In this document: positions 3,918 through 21,690 of the stretch, piece after piece
Layout: the number at the start of each line of letters is the position of its first letter
Numbering within the stretch: position 1 is the stretch's first letter
Source: a virus
Virus record (IMG/VR): IMGVR_UViG_3300028392_000321
Span: 1-21,894 of that record
Reading direction: 5' to 3' (one strand)
Length of the DNA stretch: 21,894 bases
Notes under the pieces: generated by a model
Database searches by the model: none
The model's input: the letters and a program-made list of their open reading frames with translations, nothing else
What the model was told of the DNA's origin: nothing
Position numbers and translations under genes: made by a program

Positions 3918-4916
3918 TTATAGAGTTGAGAAAGTAGCGTTGAATTGAGCGCCAGAACAAGTTAATGCACCTGAGAAACCCATCAAACGAACGATTGCAT
4001 CTTGGTTGACCGCTTGACGATCCCCACCGATAGGCACGAAGTTACGATCTTTGTGAGGACGGAAATAAACATATTTAGAATTGATAAAGTCCATTCTAGT
4101 TGCAACTTGATTACCACCGATACCGCCACCAAGTACAACGTCAGCAGAACCAGCACCGCCATAGAATTTCAATGCGCTGAAACCAGCAGCACCTAATTTA
4201 TCATCAGTGATACGTTGGATAGCTTGTAAAGAAGACAAGTAAACAGAGTAAGCAGTTGATCCAGCATAGATTAAATCTACATGGTCAGTTCCACGAACTA
4301 CAGACAAAGCAACAGTGTTCATGCTGTTTTGAATGTTAGCAGCAGTAGCAACACCGCCAGCCAAAGTAGTAGATGTGAAAGCACCGTTACGCCAGAAAGT
4401 CCAAGTAGCGCGGTCAATACCACCGTAAGTACCAGAAGTAGGCGTAGTGCTAATCATAGCTGACAAACCAACTAAGTTCTTACCAGCGTTGCCAGTTCCA
4501 TCGCCATGTAAATCAGTATCAATTTTGTTACGTAAACGAGCTTCAGCAATTTCAACACGAGTTGCAAGCAATTCGATCATTTGCTCTTTACCACTGTTTT
4601 GTAACATTTCAGGGCCTGAAATAGTTACTGCATCAGCATAATGCTTTAGTGTGAATTGAGCAGCAGAAATTGGGCTATCAGGTGAAATGTTGATAGTTTC
4701 ATAACCGGAGTATGAAGATGCGTAGTTAGTATTAGGGTCGTTATAGAACAATTCTTGTAAAATTGTTGAACCACCAGAAATAGTTTTAATGTTGCCACGT
4801 TCAGACAAACGCATCAATAATGCGTTGTTGTTAGACAAGTTGTTTTGAGCCGATTTAGTACGAGACTCAATAGTAGTAGCGATGATATCGCTGATTGCGC
4901 TGTTGGCGAAAGCCAT
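3918..4916 (-). CDS. Major capsid protein
   Basis: A 332-residue coat protein that forms the icosahedral shell. It begins MAFANSAISDIIATTIESRT and has the expected order for HK97-fold coat proteins. There is a helical N-arm and a long segment TISGPEMLQNSGKEQMIELLATRVEIAEARLRNKID (about 98-133) that reads as the spine helix. After it comes a Gly/Thr-rich region with the DLHGDGTGNAGKNLVGLSAM stretch, then beta-rich P and A-domain-like parts, ending in FSGALTCSGAQFNATFSTL. It follows the scaffold gene and precedes a decoration gene. It has one of the best ribosome sites of the module (AGAGGA). The codon choice is cleaner than in its neighbours, as expected for the most abundant virion protein. 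Confidence 0.85.
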   Translation of the reverse strand: MAFANSAISDIIATTIESRTKSAQNNLSNNNALLMRLSERGNIKTISGGSTILQELFYNDPNTNYASSYSGYETINISPDSPISAAQFTLKHYADAVTISGPEMLQNSGKEQMIELLATRVEIAEARLRNKIDTDLHGDGTGNAGKNLVGLSAMISTTPTSGTYGGIDRATWTFWRNGAFTSTTLAGGVATAANIQNSMNTVALSVVRGTDHVDLIYAGSTAYSVYLSSLQAIQRITDDKLGAAGFSALKFYGGAGSADVVLGGGIGGNQVATRMDFINSKYVYFRPHKDRNFVPIGGDRQAVNQDAIVRLMGFSGALTCSGAQFNATFSTL

Positions 4917-4936: not shown

Positions 4937-5890
4937 TTATAAACCGTGTAAGCGCATTGCTTGACGTACGGCATCTTCAGTTGATGCAGGCATAACTGAG
5001 CGAGTCACTCCAGCAGGAGCGCCTTTTACAGATACGGCTGCGGCCTTTGCAGCTTGAGCTGCTTGATTTGCCTGAACTAGATTTTGTCTGTTAGCTCCAC
5101 CTTGCTGTTGAGCAATAGTTTTGTTGAAAACATTATCATCTAATCGTATGGCTTTCGCATAAGCATCATCCAGATCATTTGCAAAACCACGTTCTAGCAG
5201 GTCTGCCATCGTAGCTTGCACATCTGTAAAATGTTCATGTGATTGTGCAAATCCATCAATACTAGACTGAATCTGTACATCCTCTTGGCTTTGTCTAAAG
5301 TTTTGAGAGGCTTGCAGTTGACCTTGGGTATACTCCAACTGCGCTTTTAAATTGTGCATATTCGGATCGTATGGCACACCGGCTAGTGAGTTCATATCAA
5401 TCTGGTAATCATGTGCTAACTTTTGTAACATTTCCGCTTTTTCTTGGTATGATCCCATTCTAAGCGTGTGTTCGGTTTTCAATAGGTTAGTAAACGCCAC
5501 GTCTGGAGTTACGCCTAGGTTGTGCATGTAATCTTTATAAGGCGAAATAGCTTTATCTATGGTTTTAGCATAGTTGGCTGCTTCCTTATACTGTTCAATC
5601 CCTTTATGGAATTGATCCTGCCGTTCGATTATATACTTCTGTGCTTCTTCAGGCAAGCCTTCCATTACTTTAGCAGCATCCGCCTTCCATGATTTCCAAG
5701 GTGAGCGTTCTTGTGATACTACTTTAGGTTCTTCAGGTGCTTTTTCTTCAGGAGCTTTATCTTCAAGTTTATCAAATTCTTTACTGATAATATCTTGTGT
5801 AGTTTCAGGTTCATTTGACTCAATAGCAGGTGTTGAATCTACTGATTCTACTACTTCGCTTGAGTCGTCAAGCATTGTATCTTCACTCAT
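4937..5890 (-). CDS. Capsid assembly scaffolding protein
   Basis: A 317-residue protein directly upstream of the coat gene, the usual place for a scaffold. The N-terminal 60 residues are very acidic and low in complexity (Ser, Glu, Asp, with KAPEEKAPEEP). The SPWKSWKADAAKVM stretch (about 63-76), typical of phage scaffolds, comes next. After it is a mostly helical body with Gln-rich coiled coil (LKAQLEYTQGQLQASQNFRQ), and then an Ala/Gln-rich linker (QAAQAAKAAAVSVKGAPAG). It ends in a short helix, DAVRQAMRLHGL, which may be the coat-binding end. It would direct the shape of the procapsid and then be lost before packaging. Family assignment is from position and architecture. Confidence 0.8.
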   Translation of the reverse strand: MSEDTMLDDSSEVVESVDSTPAIESNEPETTQDIISKEFDKLEDKAPEEKAPEEPKVVSQERSPWKSWKADAAKVMEGLPEEAQKYIIERQDQFHKGIEQYKEAANYAKTIDKAISPYKDYMHNLGVTPDVAFTNLLKTEHTLRMGSYQEKAEMLQKLAHDYQIDMNSLAGVPYDPNMHNLKAQLEYTQGQLQASQNFRQSQEDVQIQSSIDGFAQSHEHFTDVQATMADLLERGFANDLDDAYAKAIRLDDNVFNKTIAQQQGGANRQNLVQANQAAQAAKAAAVSVKGAPAGVTRSVMPASTEDAVRQAMRLHGL

Positions 5891-6835: not shown

Positions 6836-7612
6836 CTATAAAAGTAACATTAATGATTCTTCATCGTCTAATTCGTCTTGAATTAAACGGTCTATTTCAG
6901 CTTGAAGCGCCATTGCTTGCGCTTGCATAACCCTTTCTTGAAGCCTAGCTATATTAGCTTCTTCAGCAACTTTAATTTCAGCTTCTAAACTAATTTCTTC
7001 AAGCTCAGGGGGTATATCTTCACCTGTAACTTTAGCTATAGCATTTGCTATATCATTTTCAACTTCTTGACGTAAATCTTTATAAACTTTAGATTTTTTC
7101 TTGCCCGTTCCCCCTCGGTGCTGAGGTACAAACGTCTGAAAGTAAACAGCTATATCTTCTAAAGTTAAAGCTAAAACACCTTCGTGAACATCAGAACCTA
7201 ATATTTGTACACTTATATCTTCAAGAGGAATAGCTATTGCCGCATTATGAACGACTATTCCTGACGATGTATAAGTAAAGTCATCTAAGGTTAAACTTAT
7301 AGGCCCTGCATGAACATCTTGCCCGGCTACAACTACATCAATATCATCAAGAGCCAATGTTATTGTTGCATGGCGGGTTATTACGCCACTAGAAGCTACA
7401 GTTATATCATCCAGTGTTAGCTCTACTGTTGCGTGGCGAGTTATTACTCCGCTAGAAGCTACAGTTACATCATCAAGTGATATTGCTAACGTGCCAGAAT
7501 GTACAACCTTACCAGTAGAAGCAACAGTTATATCCGCAAGCGGTATGGCTACGGTTGTTTCTATCGTAGACCATTTAGAGGAATCCCATATTCCAGAATC
7601 CCACAAAGCCAT
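6836..7612 (-). CDS. Repeat-containing virion protein (seven 21-residue units plus coiled coil)
   Basis: A 258-residue protein in two parts. Residues about 18-165 are seven tandem units of about 21 residues, each of the form hydrophobic strand, LDDI.V.SSG, strand, then His. The unit-closing His residues are H38, H60, H81, H101, H122, H143 and H165. Units 2 and 3 share TVASSGVITRHAT almost exactly. After a basic linker (GGTGKKKSKVYKD) comes a long acidic helix or coiled coil (about 176-250) and a Leu-rich end. Such LDD.T.S..G repeats are seen in virion proteins of many tailed phages, so a beta-solenoid or beta-prism attached through the helical tail is likely. It starts 2 bases after the gene before it ends. 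Confidence 0.65.
   Translation of the reverse strand: MALWDSGIWDSSKWSTIETTVAIPLADITVASTGKVVHSGTLAISLDDVTVASSGVITRHATVELTLDDITVASSGVITRHATITLALDDIDVVVAGQDVHAGPISLTLDDFTYTSSGIVVHNAAIAIPLEDISVQILGSDVHEGVLALTLEDIAVYFQTFVPQHRGGTGKKKSKVYKDLRQEVENDIANAIAKVTGEDIPPELEEISLEAEIKVAEEANIARLQERVMQAQAMALQAEIDRLIQDELDDEESLMLLL
7118..7561 (-). repeat. In-frame tandem repeat, period about 63 bases, seven units
   Basis: The DNA behind the seven 21-residue units. The two most similar copies, around 7381 and 7444, share most bases over more than 40 positions (CTAGAAGCTACAGTTA in both). Outer copies keep only the protein pattern. This points to duplication by unequal crossing-over or slippage, with the youngest copies in the middle. 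Confidence 0.85.
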
Positions 7613-11516: not shown

Positions 11517-11894
11517 TTATTCTTCCCAACCTATAACTAAATTCATAGCTGAACCATCAGCGTTCGTCAGTCCTACCGCTACTCTCGTTGACTCCTTAGC
11601 CGTAGCCCAACCATGTGAGTGTTGCAATATCGCTAGCGCTGCTTTAGAGTCTCCGTTTCTAGCGGCATCTCTTAGTTGAGTTGACGCTTCCACTTCTGCG
11701 TCAGCAGCGCCCTTCATTGCGGCTAGTTCTACAGTAGGGTCTAACTGACACAGTTGCCGATACTCGGAGGGTAACATCCCTGATGCTAAGGCAAGCTTGT
11801 CACCTTTCAATCCGAGTTTAGCAGATTCATACACTTGAGTTAGACGCGCCTCTGTAGCTTGGAGTTCGCGAGGAGAATAAGGAAAGGAAATCAT
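11517..11894 (-). CDS. Probable terminase small subunit
   Basis: A 125-residue, mostly helical protein directly upstream of TerL, where the DNA-recognising small subunit normally lies. Residues about 11-60 (ELQATEARLTQVYESAKLGLKGDKLALASGMLP) can form the N-terminal HTH-like bundle. The stretch AEVEASTQLRDAARNGDSKAALAILQHSHGW (about 66-96) resembles the oligomerisation helices of phage terminase small subunits. The C-terminus is short and hydrophobic. It is the first gene of the leftward module, so its promoter should lie in 11895-12646. Ribosome site is weak (GGTG). The function is inferred mainly from position. Confidence 0.7.
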   Translation of the reverse strand: MISFPYSPRELQATEARLTQVYESAKLGLKGDKLALASGMLPSEYRQLCQLDPTVELAAMKGAADAEVEASTQLRDAARNGDSKAALAILQHSHGWATAKESTRVAVGLTNADGSAMNLVIGWEE

Positions 11895-12040: not shown

Positions 12041-12113
12041 GCCCCGCCACCGCTCACGCAGGTAACCCCCCCAACCGACCAACCGACCGATTTAAGCCCC
12101 CACCCCAAAGCCT
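12041..12113. other. C-rich tract (G-rich on the minus strand)
   Basis: The plus strand has runs of C (CCCC, a run of seven C, CCCCC, CCCC) and the tandem unit CCAACCGA twice (12071-12086) followed by CCGA, and hardly any G in its second half. The minus strand reads GGTCGGTTGGTCGGTTGG, five G pairs with 2-base loops, followed by seven G's. Such a strand can fold into a two-layer G-quadruplex. The composition contrasts sharply with the AT-rich DNA on both sides. Confidence 0.6.
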
Positions 12114-12174
12114 TTAAGAATCAATAACTTACAAACAGGCACAAGCTGCAAGCCACGAGTAGTAAGGGCTGAAC

Positions 12175-12208
12175 GCATAAGGCCGGCAAGGTGTGAGCAT
12201 AAGGCCGG
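12175..12208. repeat. 12-base direct repeat GCATAAGGCCGG
   Basis: Exact copies lie at 12175-12186 and 12197-12208, 22 bases apart (about two helical turns), each preceded by a GA/GC-containing stretch. This spacing would place two bound proteins on the same face of DNA. Confidence 0.8.
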
Positions 12209-12212
12209 TGAC

Positions 12213-12380
12213 TGTATGCAATGTCAGCAATGTTAGCTATCAATAATAATTGAAACTATACATTGGAACGTTAAGCGCTCGGCTTAATATGTCAGCATTG
12301 TTAGCTATTCTTTTTTAATAGCTAACATTGCTAACATTTAGCATCAAATTAAAAATGTATGCAATGTCAGCAATGTTAGC
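12213..12380. repeat. 25-base exact direct repeat
   Basis: The 25 bases at 12213-12237 recur exactly at 12356-12380. Each copy begins TGTATGC and then carries two tandem 9-base iterons, AATGTCAGC and AATGTTAGC. The exact identity over 25 bases inside a diverging repeat region suggests that the whole unit is the functional site or that the duplication is recent. Confidence 0.9.
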
Positions 12381-12568
12381 GCCTGTTTCAAACTACCTGG
12401 CGGTGGGACATTATTCTTTTACATATATATATATACTTTAAAACTAAATATAATATCTAATAGCTAACATTACTAACAAATAGCCTCAAGCCTCGCCATT
12501 GCTAGCCTAAGACGTATGTAATCACACCTATTTTTGATAGCTAACATTTAACAAACATTACTAACAAA
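12220..12568. repeat. 9-base iterons (AATGTYAGC) in six tandem clusters
   Basis: Forward pairs lie at 12220-12237, 12288-12305 and 12363-12380. A perfect reverse pair, GCTAACATT twice, is at 12321-12338. Reverse clusters GCTAACATT-ACTAACAAA lie at 12463-12480, and a looser one at 12540-12568. A further single GCTAACATT lies at 13020-13028 inside a small gene. Each cluster is two head-to-tail 9-mers, so a dimeric or cooperatively binding protein is expected. The copies are seen directly; binding is inferred. Confidence 0.8.
12290..12336. repeat. Large imperfect palindrome (20-base arms)
   Basis: Arms 12290-12309 and 12317-12336 are complementary at 18 of 20 positions around a 7-base T-rich loop; the ten pairs next to the loop (GTTAGCTATT / AATAGCTAAC) are perfect. 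It joins a forward and a reverse iteron pair. It could form a cruciform or an RNA hairpin. Without a clean T-run after the stem on either strand it does not read as an ordinary terminator. Confidence 0.8.
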
Positions 12569-12646
12569 ATTATTGTAAGAGAATCGCTTGCAATGATTAG
12601 CGAAAGCTGTTGTAATGGTCACGAAATTAAAAACAAGGGGGATAAA

Positions 12647-12832
12647 ATGATTAAAGATAGAAAATACGTAGTAATAAATGAAATGACTGGAACTAGTGCA
12701 AGCTTTAGTAAAACACGTCCGGCTTTAGAATGGGGACAAAAATTGTCACAATTGCAAAACACGCGTTTTAAGGTTATGCGTAAAGGCTTTTATTTTGGCA
12801 CGTTTGACAATGGTATATTAGATATTAAATAA
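12647..12832 (+). CDS. Small unknown protein, 61 residues
   Basis: First gene of the plus-strand mini-operon. The ATG at 12647 was chosen over an in-frame ATG at 12593 because AAGGGGG, a strong ribosome site, lies 5-10 bases before it. The protein starts MIKDRKYVVINEMTG and has a pattern of alternating strands and one helix (TRPALEWGQKLSQLQNTRF), ending in KGFYFGTFDNGILDIK. It is basic and has no membrane segment or cysteines. Size and charge would suit a small DNA- or protein-binding regulator, but no family was recognised. Confidence 0.55.
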   Translation: MIKDRKYVVINEMTGTSASFSKTRPALEWGQKLSQLQNTRFKVMRKGFYFGTFDNGILDIK

Positions 12833-12878
12833 CTCAATCAAGGCCGCCTTTTAATACATTAAACTAGGATAATATAAA

Positions 12879-13043
12879 ATGAAACAAACTATAAGAACAT
12901 TCAACGCCTATTTATTACTACCATTAATGATGTTAACCGGTTTTAGGTTTTCTAAACACTACCGATGGAACACAACAAAATATCATGCTTTTATATATAG
13001 CGTCGTCGATGTTGTATCAGCTAACATTAAAGCGGACCTTTAA
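12879..13043 (+). CDS. Small unknown protein, 54 residues
   Basis: A short frame with AGGA 9 bases upstream of its ATG, ending 2 bases before the next start (TAATTATG), which suggests coupled translation. The product starts MKQTIRTFNAYLLLPLMMLTG, with a hydrophobic stretch at about 9-21 that could be a weak membrane anchor. A basic and aromatic part (RFSKHYRWNTTKYH) follows. The last 15 codons contain an iteron-like GCTAACATT (13020-13028), so coding and control sequence may overlap. The function is unknown. Confidence 0.5.
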   Translation: MKQTIRTFNAYLLLPLMMLTGFRFSKHYRWNTTKYHAFIYSVVDVVSANIKADL

Positions 13044-13045
13044 TT

Positions 13046-13270
13046 ATGAAATATCAAACTGCAGAAAAGATTATCAATAAGTTAAGAGTTGGCCAAGTCG
13101 TTAAGCTTAAAAAACATAAGTATGGCGGATTACCTAGTGTTACTTGGTGCATGTTATGTAGCGTATTTTTTGATACTGGTAGTAGTAAGGCAAGTTATGA
13201 ACATATAAATGATAATCAGATAATGATATATAAAGATTGTTTGGCTATTGGCGTTGCGGAGTTATATTAA
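13046..13270 (+). CDS. Small unknown protein, 74 residues
   Basis: Starts 2 bases after the previous gene's stop. The product MKYQTAEKIINKLRVGQVVKL has a short N-terminal helix, then a likely small beta barrel (GQVVKLKKH, VTWCMLCSVFF, NQIMIYKDCLAIGVAEL), with three cysteines (CMLC and DC) and a basic patch. The layout of helix followed by a small barrel would suit a nucleic-acid-binding or inhibitor protein, but there is no recognisable family. Its end lies 1 base before the next gene's ATG, so the genes form one translational unit. Confidence 0.55.
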   Translation: MKYQTAEKIINKLRVGQVVKLKKHKYGGLPSVTWCMLCSVFFDTGSSKASYEHINDNQIMIYKDCLAIGVAELY

Positions 13271-13271
13271 A

Positions 13272-13985
13272 ATGATACCTTTAAATAATGATTATTATCA
13301 TTTAACTTTAATTAGTAAGAACAAAAAAACCGGGCCAATGGCGGTTTCAACGTCGCCTAAAAAAACATGCCCGGATAATTGCCCTTTAAAAAGTGATGGA
13401 TGCTTTGCGGATAGTGGGCCGATCCAATTACACTGGCAGCAATTGTCATTAGGTAACCGCGGGGTATTGTTTGATGATTTTCTATTACAAGTTGGCGCGC
13501 TAAGAAAAGGAGTAGAATATAGGCATAATCAAGCCGGTGACATGCCTAAAAAACCAGGTACTACTAGCACCATAGATGCACCAAAATTAAAGCAGCTCAC
13601 TAATGTCATTAATAAAAGAAAATTAAAGGCTTTCGGATATACTCATTATCCGGTTATAGACAATAAAGAAAATAGCGACGCTATAAAATATGCCAATGAT
13701 AACGGATTTGCTGTTAACTTAAGCGCTAATAATGTTAGTGATGTTGATACCTTGCTAGAACTAAATATAGCGCCGGTAGCGGTTATCATGCGCGCCAATG
13801 CTAAAAAAGTCAGCTACACTGAAAAGGGCAATAAAATAGTTATATGCCCGGCTCAAACTAATGAGAAAACAGCATGTATTGATTGTATGTTGTGCGCAAA
13901 ACCGGATAGAAAATTCTCTATAGGTTTTTATCCTCATGGAACAACGGCCAAAAAAGCGGCTATTTCAACTAATAATATAATTTAA
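13272..13985 (+). CDS. Cysteine-rich phage protein of uncharacterised family (radical-SAM-like pattern)
   Basis: A 237-residue protein. The ATG at 13272 was preferred to an in-frame TTG at 13248. It has the signature of a widespread, uncharacterised phage/plasmid family: KNKKTGPMAVSTSPKKTCP, C33-x3-C37-x6-C44 in CPDNCPLKSDGC, then FADSGP, a middle with GYTHYP (122-127) and VNLSANNVSDVDTLLEL (148-164), and a C-terminal cluster C192, C202, C205, C208 (CPAQ, CIDCMLC) followed by GFYPHGTTAKKAA. Two cysteine clusters around an alternating strand-helix core look like a metal- or Fe-S-binding TIM-barrel protein, possibly related to radical SAM enzymes. That last point is inference, since C-x3-C-x6-C is not the classical C-x3-C-x2-C motif. 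It lies in the plus-strand island between structural and replication modules. Confidence 0.65.
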   Translation: MIPLNNDYYHLTLISKNKKTGPMAVSTSPKKTCPDNCPLKSDGCFADSGPIQLHWQQLSLGNRGVLFDDFLLQVGALRKGVEYRHNQAGDMPKKPGTTSTIDAPKLKQLTNVINKRKLKAFGYTHYPVIDNKENSDAIKYANDNGFAVNLSANNVSDVDTLLELNIAPVAVIMRANAKKVSYTEKGNKIVICPAQTNEKTACIDCMLCAKPDRKFSIGFYPHGTTAKKAAISTNNII

Positions 13986-14135: not shown

Positions 14136-14158
14136 AAAAGGCCTCACGGCCTTTTTTT
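14136..14158 (+). terminator. Terminator of the plus-strand mini-operon
   Basis: AAAAGGCC / GGCCTTTT stem (14136-14143 and 14148-14155) with loop TCAC and seven T's in total (14152-14158). It lies just after the last small frame. Confidence 0.85.
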
Positions 14159-14202: not shown

Positions 14203-16482
14203 TTACTTAACTATTGATAGCTTCTTAAAGACTTCTGGCTCTACCATACGCCTCAGCTCCGATTTTGTCATGTCGCCAATGTTAGGAGCAGTGAAAATAT
14301 GTTTAGCCGTTGTGTAATCCCTACTACTAATCCTGCCCTTGTCTAACCAGCCAGCTTCTTTTAAAGCATGTAGAAAAGCCGGTTGAGGGATTTTATTACC
14401 GCTTGATTGCGTTAAGCGTTCGCATATCGCATGGAATGGCGACGCTATAACACCTGACGCAAATTCACCCACTCTTAAGCGCATCATGTCCACCAAATAC
14501 GACTCAGCGCTCGACATACCTTGCTCAACTAGATTCAACTTGAATTCCGTCATCATAGGCGCGGCACTTGGATTAAACTTGCTCACATCTCTAGTATGTA
14601 GCCATGACGCTATAGCCTCATAGCCTCCGCCAGTTTTAAACCACTCCCACATCGTTTGCGCTTTATCAGGACACATACGCGGTGCATGTGACCACACGCA
14701 AAACCAACGCCTATCCTGGCTTTCAAGTTGAATTGGGACAGGGTCATTACTAAACGCCAACACAAATACGCGGTTAAGCATATCGTATGGGTGCAATCCT
14801 TTTCTATTGATAGTCAAAGTTTCAGGAGGCGCGGCAATGATCGGTTTTAGTTTGTTAGCTAATGCTCTTCTCTCTTTAGCATCGACTTCTTTCAGCTCAT
14901 TGAGTATCAGGATCTCAGACTCAAGCGCATAGCCAAACGCGCTATTAATGCTTGAGCTATCAACTAGGCCACGATTTTTAAGATGTGCGCCACAAACAGC
15001 CCATATAAAAGGTGCATACATGGTATCCTTGCCAGCTCCTTGATCACCGCCATGTAAGATCGCATGATTGATCTTGACTTCAGGATGCTGAACCTTATAC
15101 GCCATCACGTTGAAAATATGCTCAAGCTCGTCATGGTTAGTCACTAAAGTTTTACAATGCTCTAACCATGCCGATACATCACCGGCTACATGATCAGGTC
15201 TAGCATCACGCCAACGATTGCCGTACAAATCGCCATCAAGGGCGGTTATAACGGATTCACCGGCTGCATAGGTTATACCAACAAGTGTTTTAGCGCCCAT
15301 AGCCTGCCTGTTCTCGTCATAACTACTGGCGGCTTCTATCTTGCGGCCGTTATGAATTGACTTACAATCGACATGCTTATATAAAGCATTAAAAGCTGAC
15401 CTGCTGACCTCACGTCTTGACTCAAGGTCAAAATAGGTCTCGTCCTGAATGACGTACGCATACCGCTCGAACCAGTCACGCTTTTCTATACGTCCAAGCT
15501 CTTTGCGTTCTACTTCAGCAATCAACGCATCAGCATCATTAGTAAACATGTCCGAGGGTTCTAGTTTGGCTAGGGTGTCATTCATAACCGATGCTAATAA
15601 TTCTTCCCGTAGTCCATGACTATGAATCGGGCCACCGTTAGCCTGTACCCATTCTAAAAAGCCTTTACTATCTAAATGCTGGCATGACTCATGGAAGCAC
15701 ATGTAAGCTCGGTTTAACGGGTGATAGCGTGCCATCGGGTTATTATCGGAATGATTACCTGCATTAATACAATTAACACCGTACCAGCCTTCACCATTAA
15801 CCGACTCAATAACATCACCGCGAGCATCAAGCCAAGTCAGCACGTCATCTTGACCATCGTCCATCAAATCTATACGTTTGACGGTTGCTGTATCTGCTTC
15901 ATTAGGTATAACTCCAAGGGCATTACAAATTTCAGGCAAGCTAAACTCCAAGTCTGGATTGAAAGAAGTTAACACCGATTTAAAGTTATCTCTGCCGGGC
16001 TTAAGATTGACAGAGCCGGGTAGTCTAAAGTTACGCACAGCGTTAATAGCCCCACCATCAGTATACCCAGCATCAGCTATAGCTTTAATAGCTGCGCTAA
16101 ACTCACCTTTAGTCGGCTGGTCATCAAGGGCAAAGACATAAGTATATTGATAGTTATTAGGTGAAGTCTCCATAATCCAAGTAGGTTGTAAATCAGGCGC
16201 TTTAGATTTAGTGCCTATATCATCAAGCATTAAAAACGCTACTACTTCGCAATTAGATGCAGAAGCACTAGGCTTACCATCTTTAAAACGATTAACGATA
16301 AAACTTCCAGTGTTACAAAACCAAGCACCTTTACCATCATATCTATTTGGAAGATATGCGGGCCAAGTGCATTGTTGTGCGCCATCTTTATGAAAAAGAT
16401 TAGGTTTCGGAATCTGTTTAACAAATAAAATTGTTTCGCCTTGAGGCGCGATAGATATTAGATAATCTATGAATTCACTCAT
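14203..16482 (-). CDS. Primase-helicase (RepB-type primase + SF3/VapE-like helicase)
   Basis: A 759-residue fusion that should prime and unwind phage DNA. Residues about 75-170 look like a RepB/archaeo-eukaryotic-type primase: the acid pair D87-D88 in VAFLMLDDIGTKS, then YQYTYVFA and NAVRNFRLPGSVNLK. Residues 238-269 carry a likely zinc site (C238, H244, C262, H264, C267). The C-terminal half is a DUF5906/VapE-like SF3 helicase, with Walker A GGDQGAGKDT (478-487), Walker B EILILNEL (523-530), LAFSND with sensor N579, and DRRW (590-593) with an arginine-finger candidate. The last 100 residues may be a winged helix. The start overlaps the HNH stop (ATGA), with AGGG upstream inside the HNH gene. 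It lies in the same operon as the polymerase. Assignments are by eye but consistent. Confidence 0.85.
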   Translation of the reverse strand: MSEFIDYLISIAPQGETILFVKQIPKPNLFHKDGAQQCTWPAYLPNRYDGKGAWFCNTGSFIVNRFKDGKPSASASNCEVVAFLMLDDIGTKSKAPDLQPTWIMETSPNNYQYTYVFALDDQPTKGEFSAAIKAIADAGYTDGGAINAVRNFRLPGSVNLKPGRDNFKSVLTSFNPDLEFSLPEICNALGVIPNEADTATVKRIDLMDDGQDDVLTWLDARGDVIESVNGEGWYGVNCINAGNHSDNNPMARYHPLNRAYMCFHESCQHLDSKGFLEWVQANGGPIHSHGLREELLASVMNDTLAKLEPSDMFTNDADALIAEVERKELGRIEKRDWFERYAYVIQDETYFDLESRREVSRSAFNALYKHVDCKSIHNGRKIEAASSYDENRQAMGAKTLVGITYAAGESVITALDGDLYGNRWRDARPDHVAGDVSAWLEHCKTLVTNHDELEHIFNVMAYKVQHPEVKINHAILHGGDQGAGKDTMYAPFIWAVCGAHLKNRGLVDSSSINSAFGYALESEILILNELKEVDAKERRALANKLKPIIAAPPETLTINRKGLHPYDMLNRVFVLAFSNDPVPIQLESQDRRWFCVWSHAPRMCPDKAQTMWEWFKTGGGYEAIASWLHTRDVSKFNPSAAPMMTEFKLNLVEQGMSSAESYLVDMMRLRVGEFASGVIASPFHAICERLTQSSGNKIPQPAFLHALKEAGWLDKGRISSRDYTTAKHIFTAPNIGDMTKSELRRMVEPEVFKKLSIVK

Positions 16483-16982
16483 GCTAATGCCCTATGAGAA
16501 TGTAATTGTTCTTCTGCTCGTTTTCTAACTGTGATAGCCTCATCTAAATCTTTAAATCGACCTAAGCTATGAGTGATATGGTTGACAGTTATCTGCGCGC
16601 GCCAACCTTTAGTTAAAGAGTCCCAATAAATACCTTTAACACCTGAAGTATTATTCGCCCTTATTTTAGTATTTTGGCTATTTTGAGAATCAGTAACTTC
16701 TCTTAAATTGGCAATTTTATTATCATGCCTAATTCTATTTATGTGATCTAGCTGACCTATAGGCCAAACATCAAACATATAAAGCCAAGCTAATCTATGA
16801 GCTAAATAATCTTTTTTATTAATGCAAATATAAACGTATCCAGTAGCAATATGAAAATGCCCTGCTTGCGTGCCTAATAACGCGCAATAATTCCTATCAA
16901 TGTTATTAGTAAATAATCCTGTGTCAGGATCATAATGTAAGAGCTTTTTTAATTCAGTTTGTGATAAACTAGATGCAGTCAC
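16479..16982 (-). CDS. HNH endonuclease with AP2 DNA-binding domain
   Basis: A 167-residue homing-type nuclease beginning with GTG at 16980-16982, chosen because AGGA lies 7 bases before it. Order: an N-terminal recognition segment (LLHYDPDTGLFTN), the HNH core (AHRLAWLYM with H62, QLDHINRIRHDNKIANLREV with D79, H80 and N88), then an AP2 domain (SGVKGIYWDSLTKGWRAQI, LGRFKDLDEAI, about 113-155). This is the commonest layout of phage HNH-AP2 endonucleases. It lies between polymerase and primase genes, with a terminator upstream and a four-base overlap downstream. It is therefore an insert that has become coupled to primase translation. All key residues are intact. Confidence 0.9.
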   Translation of the reverse strand: MTASSLSQTELKKLLHYDPDTGLFTNNIDRNYCALLGTQAGHFHIATGYVYICINKKDYLAHRLAWLYMFDVWPIGQLDHINRIRHDNKIANLREVTDSQNSQNTKIRANNTSGVKGIYWDSLTKGWRAQITVNHITHSLGRFKDLDEAITVRKRAEEQLHSHRALA

Positions 16983-17071: not shown

Positions 17072-18958
17072 CTACTTTCCATATCGAAACATAGTGCTTA
17101 TTTCCACTTCTAATGGAAGGCCAATACCCCACGATGGGGGTTTACACATAACTTCAGCCATACGGGCAGATATTATTTCAGCGTCTTCAATAGCGCACTC
17201 AACCACAATTTCATCATGTACAGTTGCTATAATTTGTATACCCTCTGATGAAAGAACTCTAAGCGAATTCCTTAATAGATCATTTGCTGTGGCTTGAGCA
17301 ATGTTTTCTTGTGCGATCCCTTGCCACAGTCTAGCTCTAGGCCATTCTAAAGCATCGGCAGCAGGTTTGAACGCGGCCTTTAAATAAGTTACTGAGCCAT
17401 CTTCTATACGTGCAAACGGATAGCACAATACTCTCCCAGACGGAAGAATGTACCATAAATGTACGCCATCAAATAGATAGGCAACTCTACCAGCAGAAAA
17501 TTCATGGTTCTTGTGTCTCATGGCAGACATGTAGGCGCGTTCAAGGTCTTGACCATAAGGCATCATCCAAGGATTAGCCACACGCCAGCCATTAATCATA
17601 CGTTTTATTTGGTGTTCTGACATCTCTAAGCCATAGATTCTAGCCATTGATGCAAACGCTCCAGCACCGCCTGAAAAGCCAAGTGCAAGCTCCTGCACCT
17701 TGCCAATAAAGCGCTGATCTTTAGTCACTTCTTTAGTGTTGAAAGTAGACTTTGCGTTCTCGACATACACGTCACCACCTGACCTGAAGATGTCAAGTTT
17801 AGCTTCAGATGCAATATGATTAGACAGCCAAGGATTACAACGTGCTTCAATACCAGCCCAGTCAGCTACGACTAACACATTTCCTTTAGCAGGTATGATA
17901 GAGGGACGGATCATGCCCTTAAGAACGTCAGTAACACGACTGCCATAAGCACTAAGGTCATCACCTGCCATCATAGCAGCACGTACCGCGACAGGGTCTT
18001 TAGCACAAATGCGAGCCATATTCTGCAACTGAACGCCATAAGAAGAAGCCCGGCCAGTAGCTGCACCGCCATTAAAGACAAATGCGCCCCTAACTCGGTA
18101 GTCTTCTATATCTGATAACTGCGCCATGCGTTTAAACTTAGCGATAGACGATGCGCTAATATCATCGATACATTGCACGACATCCAGCACATCATCAGGC
18201 AAGTCTAATTGCAGTAAAGCAGTCCTGACATTTTTATTAAGTGATAGTTTGTCATCAACCATCATTAGTTCTGGATCAATACGCTCGGATATCCATAGTT
18301 TTAATTTAGGTGATCTGGCAGACGCTATACCGGTGATATCTTTTACAAGCGATTGTATATCGTCCAACTCAGCAGAAGCATAGACAATAGCAGCATTACA
18401 TAGGGGAACATCTACAAGTAAACCTTTATCGTTGATTCTTTCGTTAATTTGATAGTCAAGCAATTCTTCATCAGATAGCTGACGTAATGCCAGACTGACT
18501 TCACGCATAGCACGAACGTCTTGTTCACAGTATTTGATTAGTTCAGGGATTAGTTCAGTATTGTATGGAGGGAGACAGCATTGACGGATAAGCTGTTTGC
18601 CTCGATGATCTTTTTTCATCTTAGCAGACATAGCACGGCCGATATCTTCAAGGCTACCGGGCAAGCAATTAGCCCTAGCTTGAGCAGCAGTGCAGTAGAA
18701 TTGTTCTAGTTTGAAGTTGATACCAAGTACATACCAGAAGATCAGGCGCTCAAAGGTAGCGTTATGCGCGCGTATTTGGCCAGTATAGTTTCTGACAGCA
18801 TCAGGGAATGGTTGATCCGGTGTCCAAGTCTGAACATCTTCATCATTAAAAGCATAAGACATACATAAAACTTGTGTGGTCAAGTCTTGAGCATAGTTGT
18901 AGACACCATGCTTTTTTAAATCACAAGCGGATTTAGTTTCAAAGTCAATGAATAACAT
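17072..18958 (-). CDS. Family A DNA polymerase with 3'-5' exonuclease
   Basis: A 628-residue Pol I-like replicative polymerase without a 5'-3' exonuclease domain. Proofreading motifs: D5 and E7 in FIDFETKS, AHNATFER (64-71), and YCEQDVRAM (143-151). Polymerase motif A is VVADWAGIEAR with D366 and E371. Motif B is RFIGKVQELALGFSGGAG with R416 and K420. Motif C is HDEIVVE with D582 and E583. All catalytic acids are present. At the position equivalent to E. coli Phe762, K420+4, there is L424, a variant used as a marker of phage lifestyle. The start has the ribosome site AGGA. It lies between the ssDNA-binding candidate and the HNH-primase pair, with terminators on both sides. Confidence 0.95.
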   Translation of the reverse strand: MLFIDFETKSACDLKKHGVYNYAQDLTTQVLCMSYAFNDEDVQTWTPDQPFPDAVRNYTGQIRAHNATFERLIFWYVLGINFKLEQFYCTAAQARANCLPGSLEDIGRAMSAKMKKDHRGKQLIRQCCLPPYNTELIPELIKYCEQDVRAMREVSLALRQLSDEELLDYQINERINDKGLLVDVPLCNAAIVYASAELDDIQSLVKDITGIASARSPKLKLWISERIDPELMMVDDKLSLNKNVRTALLQLDLPDDVLDVVQCIDDISASSIAKFKRMAQLSDIEDYRVRGAFVFNGGAATGRASSYGVQLQNMARICAKDPVAVRAAMMAGDDLSAYGSRVTDVLKGMIRPSIIPAKGNVLVVADWAGIEARCNPWLSNHIASEAKLDIFRSGGDVYVENAKSTFNTKEVTKDQRFIGKVQELALGFSGGAGAFASMARIYGLEMSEHQIKRMINGWRVANPWMMPYGQDLERAYMSAMRHKNHEFSAGRVAYLFDGVHLWYILPSGRVLCYPFARIEDGSVTYLKAAFKPAADALEWPRARLWQGIAQENIAQATANDLLRNSLRVLSSEGIQIIATVHDEIVVECAIEDAEIISARMAEVMCKPPSWGIGLPLEVEISTMFRYGK

Positions 18959-20848: not shown

Positions 20849-21073
20849 ATGAACATAAACGCATTAAGAACCATCGCATTAATCACCGCTTTTATATCAG
20901 GCGCATTTGCCCACAGCTTCTATTTTAAAGCCCCGCTTAACATGGTGAAGATGGAAGTTACTAAGTCAGGCAAGTTTGTATTGAACGATGGACACATCTA
21001 TGAGTTGAACGAATTAGAAGTAGACATGGTGTTTCCTACTCAGCAATATAATCTGCCATCAGGTAAAAGATAA
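20849..21073 (+). CDS. Small membrane protein, 74 residues
   Basis: Starts at an ATG with a strong AAGGAAA ribosome site 6-10 bases upstream. Residues 8-26 (TIALITAFISGAFAHSFYF) form one membrane span or an uncleaved signal anchor. The rest (about 48 residues) is soluble, with an alternating pattern (KMEVTKSGKFVLNDGHIYEL), and would face the periplasm if the start is inside. There is no lipobox cysteine. It is the first gene of the rightward operon, overlapping the next one by TAATG. Such small membrane proteins are common in early phage operons; function is unknown. Confidence 0.6.
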   Translation: MNINALRTIALITAFISGAFAHSFYFKAPLNMVKMEVTKSGKFVLNDGHIYELNELEVDMVFPTQQYNLPSGKR

Positions 21074-21690
21074 TGGAAAAATTATTGGAAATGGTAGTTC
21101 GATGTGAAGTATGGCCTACTGGATTAGTTGGGGCTGATGTTATAGCAAAAGAATATGGAATAAGTGAAGACCGCGTTATAGGATTAGCTGATAGTGGGTA
21201 TATGCCTCATTACCGTTTAGATGGAGGCTCACCAATGTTTAAAAAAACTGACGCTAAACAATGGATCGCCCAGAATATGATGCAACAAATTAAAGGTAAA
21301 GCAGCTGATTTTGAGTTTAAGGTGCTTCTTGATGTACCACAAAAGTTTGATACTTTGCCACCTAAATCAATATCAAATGTTGCAGGGCTTACTGAATTAA
21401 CTCATATGTTATACCCATCAGGAGTATATTTTTTAGTTCAAGATGATGAAGTTGTATATGTAGGGCAGTCTGTAAACCCTTTAGCTAGAATAAGCACACA
21501 TGTAAAAGAAAAAGCAGGTATGTTTAATAAGTTTTATTTTTTAGCAGTCCCTAAACATATGCTAGATTCTGTAGAAGGTGGATTTATAAAGCTATTAAAG
21601 CCAAAGCTAAATGGAAATCCGGGGCCAAGCGCATATGGAAAAGAATCACTAGCTAATCAAATTCATCCTAACTTATATAAGGTGGCGTAA
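21073..21690 (+). CDS. HTH-GIY-YIG nuclease
   Basis: A 205-residue protein with two parts. The N-terminal part (about 14-68) resembles an excisionase/MerR-type helix-turn-helix (VIAKEYGISEDRVIGLADSG, then TDAKQWIAQNM). The C-terminal part is a GIY-YIG domain: GVY (117-119), YVG (129-131), R139 in PLARISTHV, E168 in DSVEGGFI and N180 in KPKLNG, so all usual catalytic residues (Tyr, Tyr, Arg, Glu, Asn) are in place. It could be a homing endonuclease, a nuclease acting on host or rival DNA, or a nicking enzyme of phage replication. The start and stop overlap the neighbouring genes by one base (TAATG). Confidence 0.8.
   Translation: MEKLLEMVVRCEVWPTGLVGADVIAKEYGISEDRVIGLADSGYMPHYRLDGGSPMFKKTDAKQWIAQNMMQQIKGKAADFEFKVLLDVPQKFDTLPPKSISNVAGLTELTHMLYPSGVYFLVQDDEVVYVGQSVNPLARISTHVKEKAGMFNKFYFLAVPKHMLDSVEGGFIKLLKPKLNGNPGPSAYGKESLANQIHPNLYKVA

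Follow-up and report, generated by a model that had tools for sequence, protein, structure and literature searches.

A short-repeat array in an uncultured freshwater phage is very probably a theta-type replication origin, opened by the phage's own PrimPol-helicase, which would bind the repeats (iterons) through its C-terminal winged helix. This reading, drawn from comparative sequence analysis, is strongly supported by a conserved floor plan, a core that resembles a DNA-unwinding element, and covariation of the iterons with the C-terminal domain of the protein. The array lies in a 21.9-kb virus contig (the window, meaning the whole 21,894-nt stretch that we analysed) encoding terminase, portal, coat protein, family-A polymerase, primase and exonuclease. 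A probable origin and initiator are thereby named for a phage group in which the key domain is annotated only as DUF5906. At least ten iteron spellings, paired with matching wings on near-identical proteins, amount to a natural experiment; these pairs make it possible to test in what way a winged helix uses its wing to read bases, and in what way an array of 10-18 copies can be rewritten with its function kept. Iteron switching, and the natural data set on a protein-DNA recognition code that comes with it, are what is new here.

An iteron array around an AT-rich core

The exact 9-mer AATGTYAGC occurs 11 times in the whole window, with eight copies inside 12220-12548, against a chance level of 0.62 for the whole window (sd 0.74, maximum 3, 100 dinucleotide shuffles). 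These counts bear out an earlier note on this DNA, which had described an iteron array of at least eleven copies. All six clusters that it listed, in both orientations, were found, and the TA-rich segment that it placed between clusters coincides with the lowest-stability 50 bp of the contig (Table 1). A search for further copies, which the note had proposed as a check, placed three of the 11 exact window copies outside 12220-12548; these stand alone at 4332, 13020 and 20001, again to be compared with 0.62 expected in the whole window. The 18-base pair of units, AATGTYAGCAATGTYAGC, matched eight times at up to three mismatches, seven times at 12211-12480 and once, weakly, at 5415 within a coding sequence; with the pattern reversed, as a control, there was no match.

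In a common register the unit reads TGT-YAG-CAA, and the array comprises about 14 units when degenerate ones are counted. They stand on both sides of the AT-rich core as direct pairs or triplets, some rightward and some leftward. On one side of the array is the terminase operon, which runs leftward, and on the other a group of small genes that run rightward. GC-rich short tandem repeats are present at 12071-12088 and 12164-12208, in the interval that separates the array from the small terminase gene; such repeats (e.g., CAGCCAGCC, CTGACTGAC, AAGGGCAAGGGC, GCAGACAGCAGACA) vary by contig (L011, L016, L018, L020, L025, L046, L058).

Table 1. Features of the window that bear on the proposed origin and its initiator
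Feature	Coordinates	Strand	Remarks
Small terminase subunit	11517..11894	-	Assigned by position and conservation
Iteron cluster A	12211..12237	+	Degenerate unit at 12211-12219, then two perfect units at 12220-12237 (AATGTCAGC AATGTTAGC)
Iteron cluster B	12288..12305	+	TATGTCAGC ATTGTTAGC; spacing conserved in relatives
Iteron cluster C	12321..12338	-	Inverted, two perfect units
Iteron cluster D	12354..12380	+	Three units, the first degenerate (AATGTATGC AATGTCAGC AATGTTAGC)
AT-rich core, candidate DNA-unwinding element	12410..12462	.	12410-12459 is the lowest-stability 50 bp of the contig
Iteron cluster E	12463..12480	-	Opposite in orientation to D, on the far side of the AT-rich core
Iteron cluster F	12540..12568	-	One perfect unit and degenerate units
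Proposed initiator PrimPol-helicase, 759 aa	14203..16482	-	Pfam, structural matches, covariation
Predicted winged-helix domain of the initiator	14233..14529	-	Residues ~652-750; AlphaFold2 and winged-helix matches
Predicted wing hairpin of the initiator	14290..14346	-	Residues 713-731; residues covary with iteron spelling
Family-A polymerase	17072-18958		Phage polymerase

Relatives keep the floor plan and change the iteron

Roughly 200 loci were gathered through searches with the large terminase, a 17-base pattern and the primase. In about 90 related contigs of a viral collection an array occupies the equivalent site, upstream of the small-terminase gene. The floor plan is nearly constant among these ~90, in which the iteron is spelled in at least ten ways: TGTYAGCAA, TGTATCA.., TGTAWGCAA, TGTGTACAA, TGTGGACAA, TGTGGGTAA, TTGGGTCAT, TATTGGCAT, TGTAGGYAG and TGMATGCAA. 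Relatives whose large terminase is 89-100% identical have the same iteron as the window; the group at 84% (L030-L064) has no AATGTYAGC, and its arrays at the equivalent junction contain TGTRGKYAGT seven to 13 times. When near-identical 9-mers were counted without a preset motif, each array upstream of the small-terminase gene had ~5-18 copies. There is one array site per genome, as pairs in the relatives, records of 36-42 kb included, cluster upstream of the small terminase. An extra pair, with two mismatches, occurs in G006 at 14141-14158, outside the G006 array.

Cluster gaps of 59, 24, 24 and 91 bases (neighbouring units, start to start) are identical in the window, L009 and L066. With the middle of the AT-rich core taken as zero, units of the window lie at -218/-209/-200 (rightward), -141/-132 (rightward), -112/-103 (leftward) and -75/-66/-57 (rightward) on the left side, and at +30/+39 and +107/+127 (both leftward) on the right. 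Those of L284, spelled TTGGGTCAT, lie at -178/-169 (rightward), -150/-141 (leftward) and -104/-96/-87 (rightward), and at +30/+39 and +117/+126 (both leftward); the layouts of L284 and of L273, which is spelled TGTGGACAA, are nearly the same as that of the window. Arrays are lengthened by 250-340 bases in L012, L016, L018, L025 and L262. In two lineages a family of small ORFs (83-116 aa) splits the clusters in lengthened arrays, at 486-737 of the array-to-primase region in L016 and at 404-754 in L262.

The array core is the lowest-stability stretch in the near-complete relatives G004 and G011, and ranks second in G006. Cumulative GC skew, a further check named in the earlier note, did not mark the array: in these three relatives its minimum falls beside the exonuclease gene at another switch of gene direction (G006 21624, G004 31561, G011 37346), which is uninformative either way.

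The array travels with the primase and the small terminase rather than with the structural module. Where the large terminase is related (63-73%), the contigs yielded neither a primase nor a small-terminase match, and repeated 9-mers were scarce or absent in the upstream stretch that we examined. L252-L323 keep the primase, the array and the small terminase (56-73%), gave no large-terminase match by tblastn, and seem to have exchanged the structural module.

Iteron spelling covaries with the wing of the primase-helicase

Contig L247 closely resembles the window in its small terminase (98% identical), large terminase (96%) and primase (90%), and its iteron is WATGTATYA. When the C-terminal parts of the L247 and L009 primases were compared, the main difference was one segment, SSRDYTSA in L009 and KSADYPSQ in L247. 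Across 120 C-termini this wing segment (residues ~711-727) tracks the iteron spelling (Table 2). The earlier note had seen no partner gene for the array in the window, which was wrong, as the primase-helicase encoded there covaries with the iterons.

Table 2. Wing segments of the primase-helicase and the iterons with which they occur
Wing	Iteron
(S/A)SR(D/E)YT(T/S)A	TGTYAGCAA
KS(A/T)D(Y/F)PSQ	TGTATCA
ASREFTTQ	TGTAWGCAA
KSREFPS(V/Q)	TGTGTACA or TGTGCATA
KSR(D/E)(Y/F)D(T/S)K	TGTGGACAA
KSREYDNR	TGTGGGTAA
AS(G/S)D(F/Y/C)(Q/P)SK	TTGGGTCAT
ASADYMSK	TATTGGCAT
(N/A)SRS(S/V)KTK	TGTRGKYAGT
NTREYTTS	TGMATGCAA

We then scanned for covariation by regressing identity per nine-residue window on overall identity, with iteron labels for 12 loci assigned by hand and the wing already spotted by eye. 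The top ten of 751 primase windows start at 710-719; the best partial r was 0.59, about 4 sd from the mean (mean 0.004, sd 0.146), and the best windows in TerS, PolA, SSB and exonuclease reached r 0.33-0.43. Pairs of proteins between which the iteron switches gave the same picture. In L252/L253, seven of 14 wing residues differ, compared with four of 465 in the rest of 281-759 (Fisher p 1e-9); the wing differs at 6/14 positions versus 3.0% elsewhere in L273/L275, and at 5/14 versus 3.2% in L257/L260. Helix 3 (residues 697-711) has zero differences within any switch pair, and the wing excess is absent from same-iteron pairs, even at 21% overall divergence. Matched wings and iterons also turn up together on distinct backbones: L247 on the one hand and L252/L261 on the other combine KSxDxPSQ with ATGTATCA, and L273/L301, L304 and L336 combine KSRxxD(T/S)K with TGTGGACA.

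Seven held-out contigs carried the iteron predicted from their wing (L251, L192, L255, L256, L266, L299, L336), which we count as about five independent cases because L251/L192 and L255/L256 look like near-duplicates. L255/L256 are the sharpest, since they have the backbone of L252/L253/L258 but the wing KSREFPSV and TGTGTACA-type iterons. L336, only 55% identical, combines the wing KSRRHDSK with TTGTGGACA, and the wing of L330, ASRDHTTR, falls between two classes, as does its iteron, TGTWAGCAA. Held-out contigs L250, L254, L265, L271, L313, L323 and L332 yielded no array, as they stop at most ~2 kb from the primase, before or about the expected array; the wings of L285 and L293 lie outside Table 2, and no known iteron was found on either contig. 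The code is not one-to-one, since the L116 group has TGTCAGCAA with the distinct wing SARALPTR, giving one iteron class two quite different wings; the class 4 wings (KSREFPSV/KSREFPSQ) lump the TGTGTACA and TGTGCATA spellings. Many of the compared contigs are close relatives and, as array and protein are genetically linked, some of the covariation reflects shared descent.

The balance tips slightly towards a lineage that keeps one origin floor plan and rewrites all iterons and a ~10-residue wing together, repeatedly, leaving a readable recognition code and many exclusive specificities that coexist in freshwater. Such coexisting origin specificities would perhaps keep relatives or satellites that co-infect the cell from cross-initiating.

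What reads the array

In all relatives the distance from the array to the small-terminase gene, upstream of which it lies, is a few hundred bases, and the small terminase co-occurs with the array, as would be expected of a packaging site (pac/cosB-like) whose repeats are bound by the small terminase subunit. However, the small terminases of L247 and L013 are ~98% identical to that of the window and their iterons are different, so the small terminase is not the reader; the best small-terminase window in the scan (r 0.35) is below the primase wing, and the site sequence does not track this protein. We therefore consider a packaging site very unlikely. We give just as little credence to an operator array, at which a repressor or activator would control the two divergent operons between which it lies, with clusters in both orientations. 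Sigma-70-like sites are in no excess (4 vs 4.4 expected), the adjacent small genes are not common to same-iteron phages and include no universal family, and the covarying protein is a helicase-primase. The earlier note had left origin and operator side by side; the origin half has gained from floor plan, core and covariation, and the operator half found no support in the promoter-like sites. The initiator may have a secondary, autoregulatory role.

Least probable of all is that another phage protein or a host factor reads the iterons and the wing covaries through linkage only: array and primase are 2-3 kb apart and the comparison covered genes on short contigs only (the L247 contig is 7 kb), but linkage alone is insufficient because the covariation is restricted to the wing of an otherwise near-identical protein, and wing and iteron recur jointly on separate backbones. 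Two other candidate readers were rejected. The adjacent small genes (12593-13985) are variable and not universal; DUF7227 gave a high r, but on 24 sequences with an sd of 0.28, and several phages that carry the array lack it.

Domain structure of the proposed initiator and a proposed mechanism

Pfam identified a RepB_primase (PrimPol) domain and a DUF5906 SF3-type helicase in the proposed initiator. Residues 1-200 align to RepB' and S-2L PrimPol (Z 12-14.5). Searching solved structures by sequence matched only NrS-1 chains (E 4e-8, residues 459-597), and the NrS-1 primase was also recovered by fold comparison; the match, to the C-terminal region of that phage primase (6k9c, 6k9e, 6lrb), is remote. 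An AlphaFold2 model was built on an alignment of 30 natural sequences, the model without an alignment being of no use (pLDDT 36). Its helicase part is poor (pLDDT <50), and the helicase identity therefore rests on DUF5906 and the NrS-1 match. The C-terminal part has helices at 658-668, 683-694 and 700-709 and strands at 713-717 and 728-731 (pLDDT ~66-83). As modelled, this order of elements is that of a winged helix, in which the wing would be made up of the covarying residues, with a conserved helix 3. Alignments of residues 652-750 to winged-helix domains gave Z 5-7.5, each modest alone. The variable segment had been a candidate recognition helix, which we rejected because the model places it in the wing.

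In the mechanism that we propose, the PrimPol-helicase would use its C-terminal winged helix to bind the 9-bp iterons. Helix 3 (residues 697-711), which is invariant, would recognize the constant outer bases, TGT...CAA, and the central bases would be read by the variable wing (residues ~714-727), a division of contacts hypothesized from the pattern of conservation. Facing iteron pairs across the core, D rightward and E leftward, could seat helicase rings on both sides; the AT-rich core would then melt and the rings load in opposite directions. The PrimPol-helicase would prime, and the family-A polymerase would extend.

Comparison with known initiators

P4 alpha combines primase and helicase in one protein, binds origin repeats through a winged helix, and then unwinds and primes; its primase is of the TOPRIM type (PMC4234260). 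In architecture the window protein is likewise a primase-helicase fusion with a winged-helix domain predicted to bind the origin, whereas its primase is an archaeo-eukaryotic PrimPol (RepB'-like), and the repeat and layout of the P4 origin differ from those here. P4 alpha did not emerge as a relative, and its origin-binding domain was absent among the structural matches listed, which is uninformative either way. Since its primase part is RepB_primase/PrimPol, we describe the window protein as likely to work like P4 alpha, and do not class it as a member. ORF904 of pRN1 unites an archaeo-eukaryotic primase, a helicase and a C-terminal winged helix in one initiator and acts at a stem-loop origin, with iterons absent (PMC4234260). 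The window protein shares the PrimPol, helicase and predicted winged helix, but its proposed origin is an iteron array.

Origins of the SaPI type have iterons that flank an AT-rich stretch, a layout like that described here. SaPI Rep and SCCmec Cch2 are self-loading helicases whose C-terminal domain acts on short iterons, and SaPI origins lie directly downstream of rep (PMC7581432). By description the window protein is similar, an initiator helicase with its C-terminal domain as the putative iteron reader (here from covariation). The SaPI and SCCmec systems have other hosts and other sequences, and small variable genes separate our array from the initiator gene, in contrast to the SaPI origin beside rep. 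In the literature searched, we found no description of a multi-class spelling switch on a fixed floor plan.

Affiliation and other features of the window

A megablast search of the whole window against named phages gave no match; the nearest named relative is the uncultured podovirus MW202483, at 52% primase identity, in which no clear-cut array was recognized. Primase relatives in genome collections are mostly metagenome-bin contigs, several of them betaproteobacterial, and for this reason we speak of a freshwater group and assign it no host. On sequence reading, short ORFs resembling HNH-type homing endonucleases occur at 16479-16982, between primase and polymerase, and at 1363-1839. The region 21073-21690 gave a weak GIY-YIG match and has a possible helix-turn-helix. 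A 63-base tandem repeat (2.2 copies, 7341-7477) lies within the ORF at 6836-7612, the product of which contains repeated DDxTVASSGVI-like segments.
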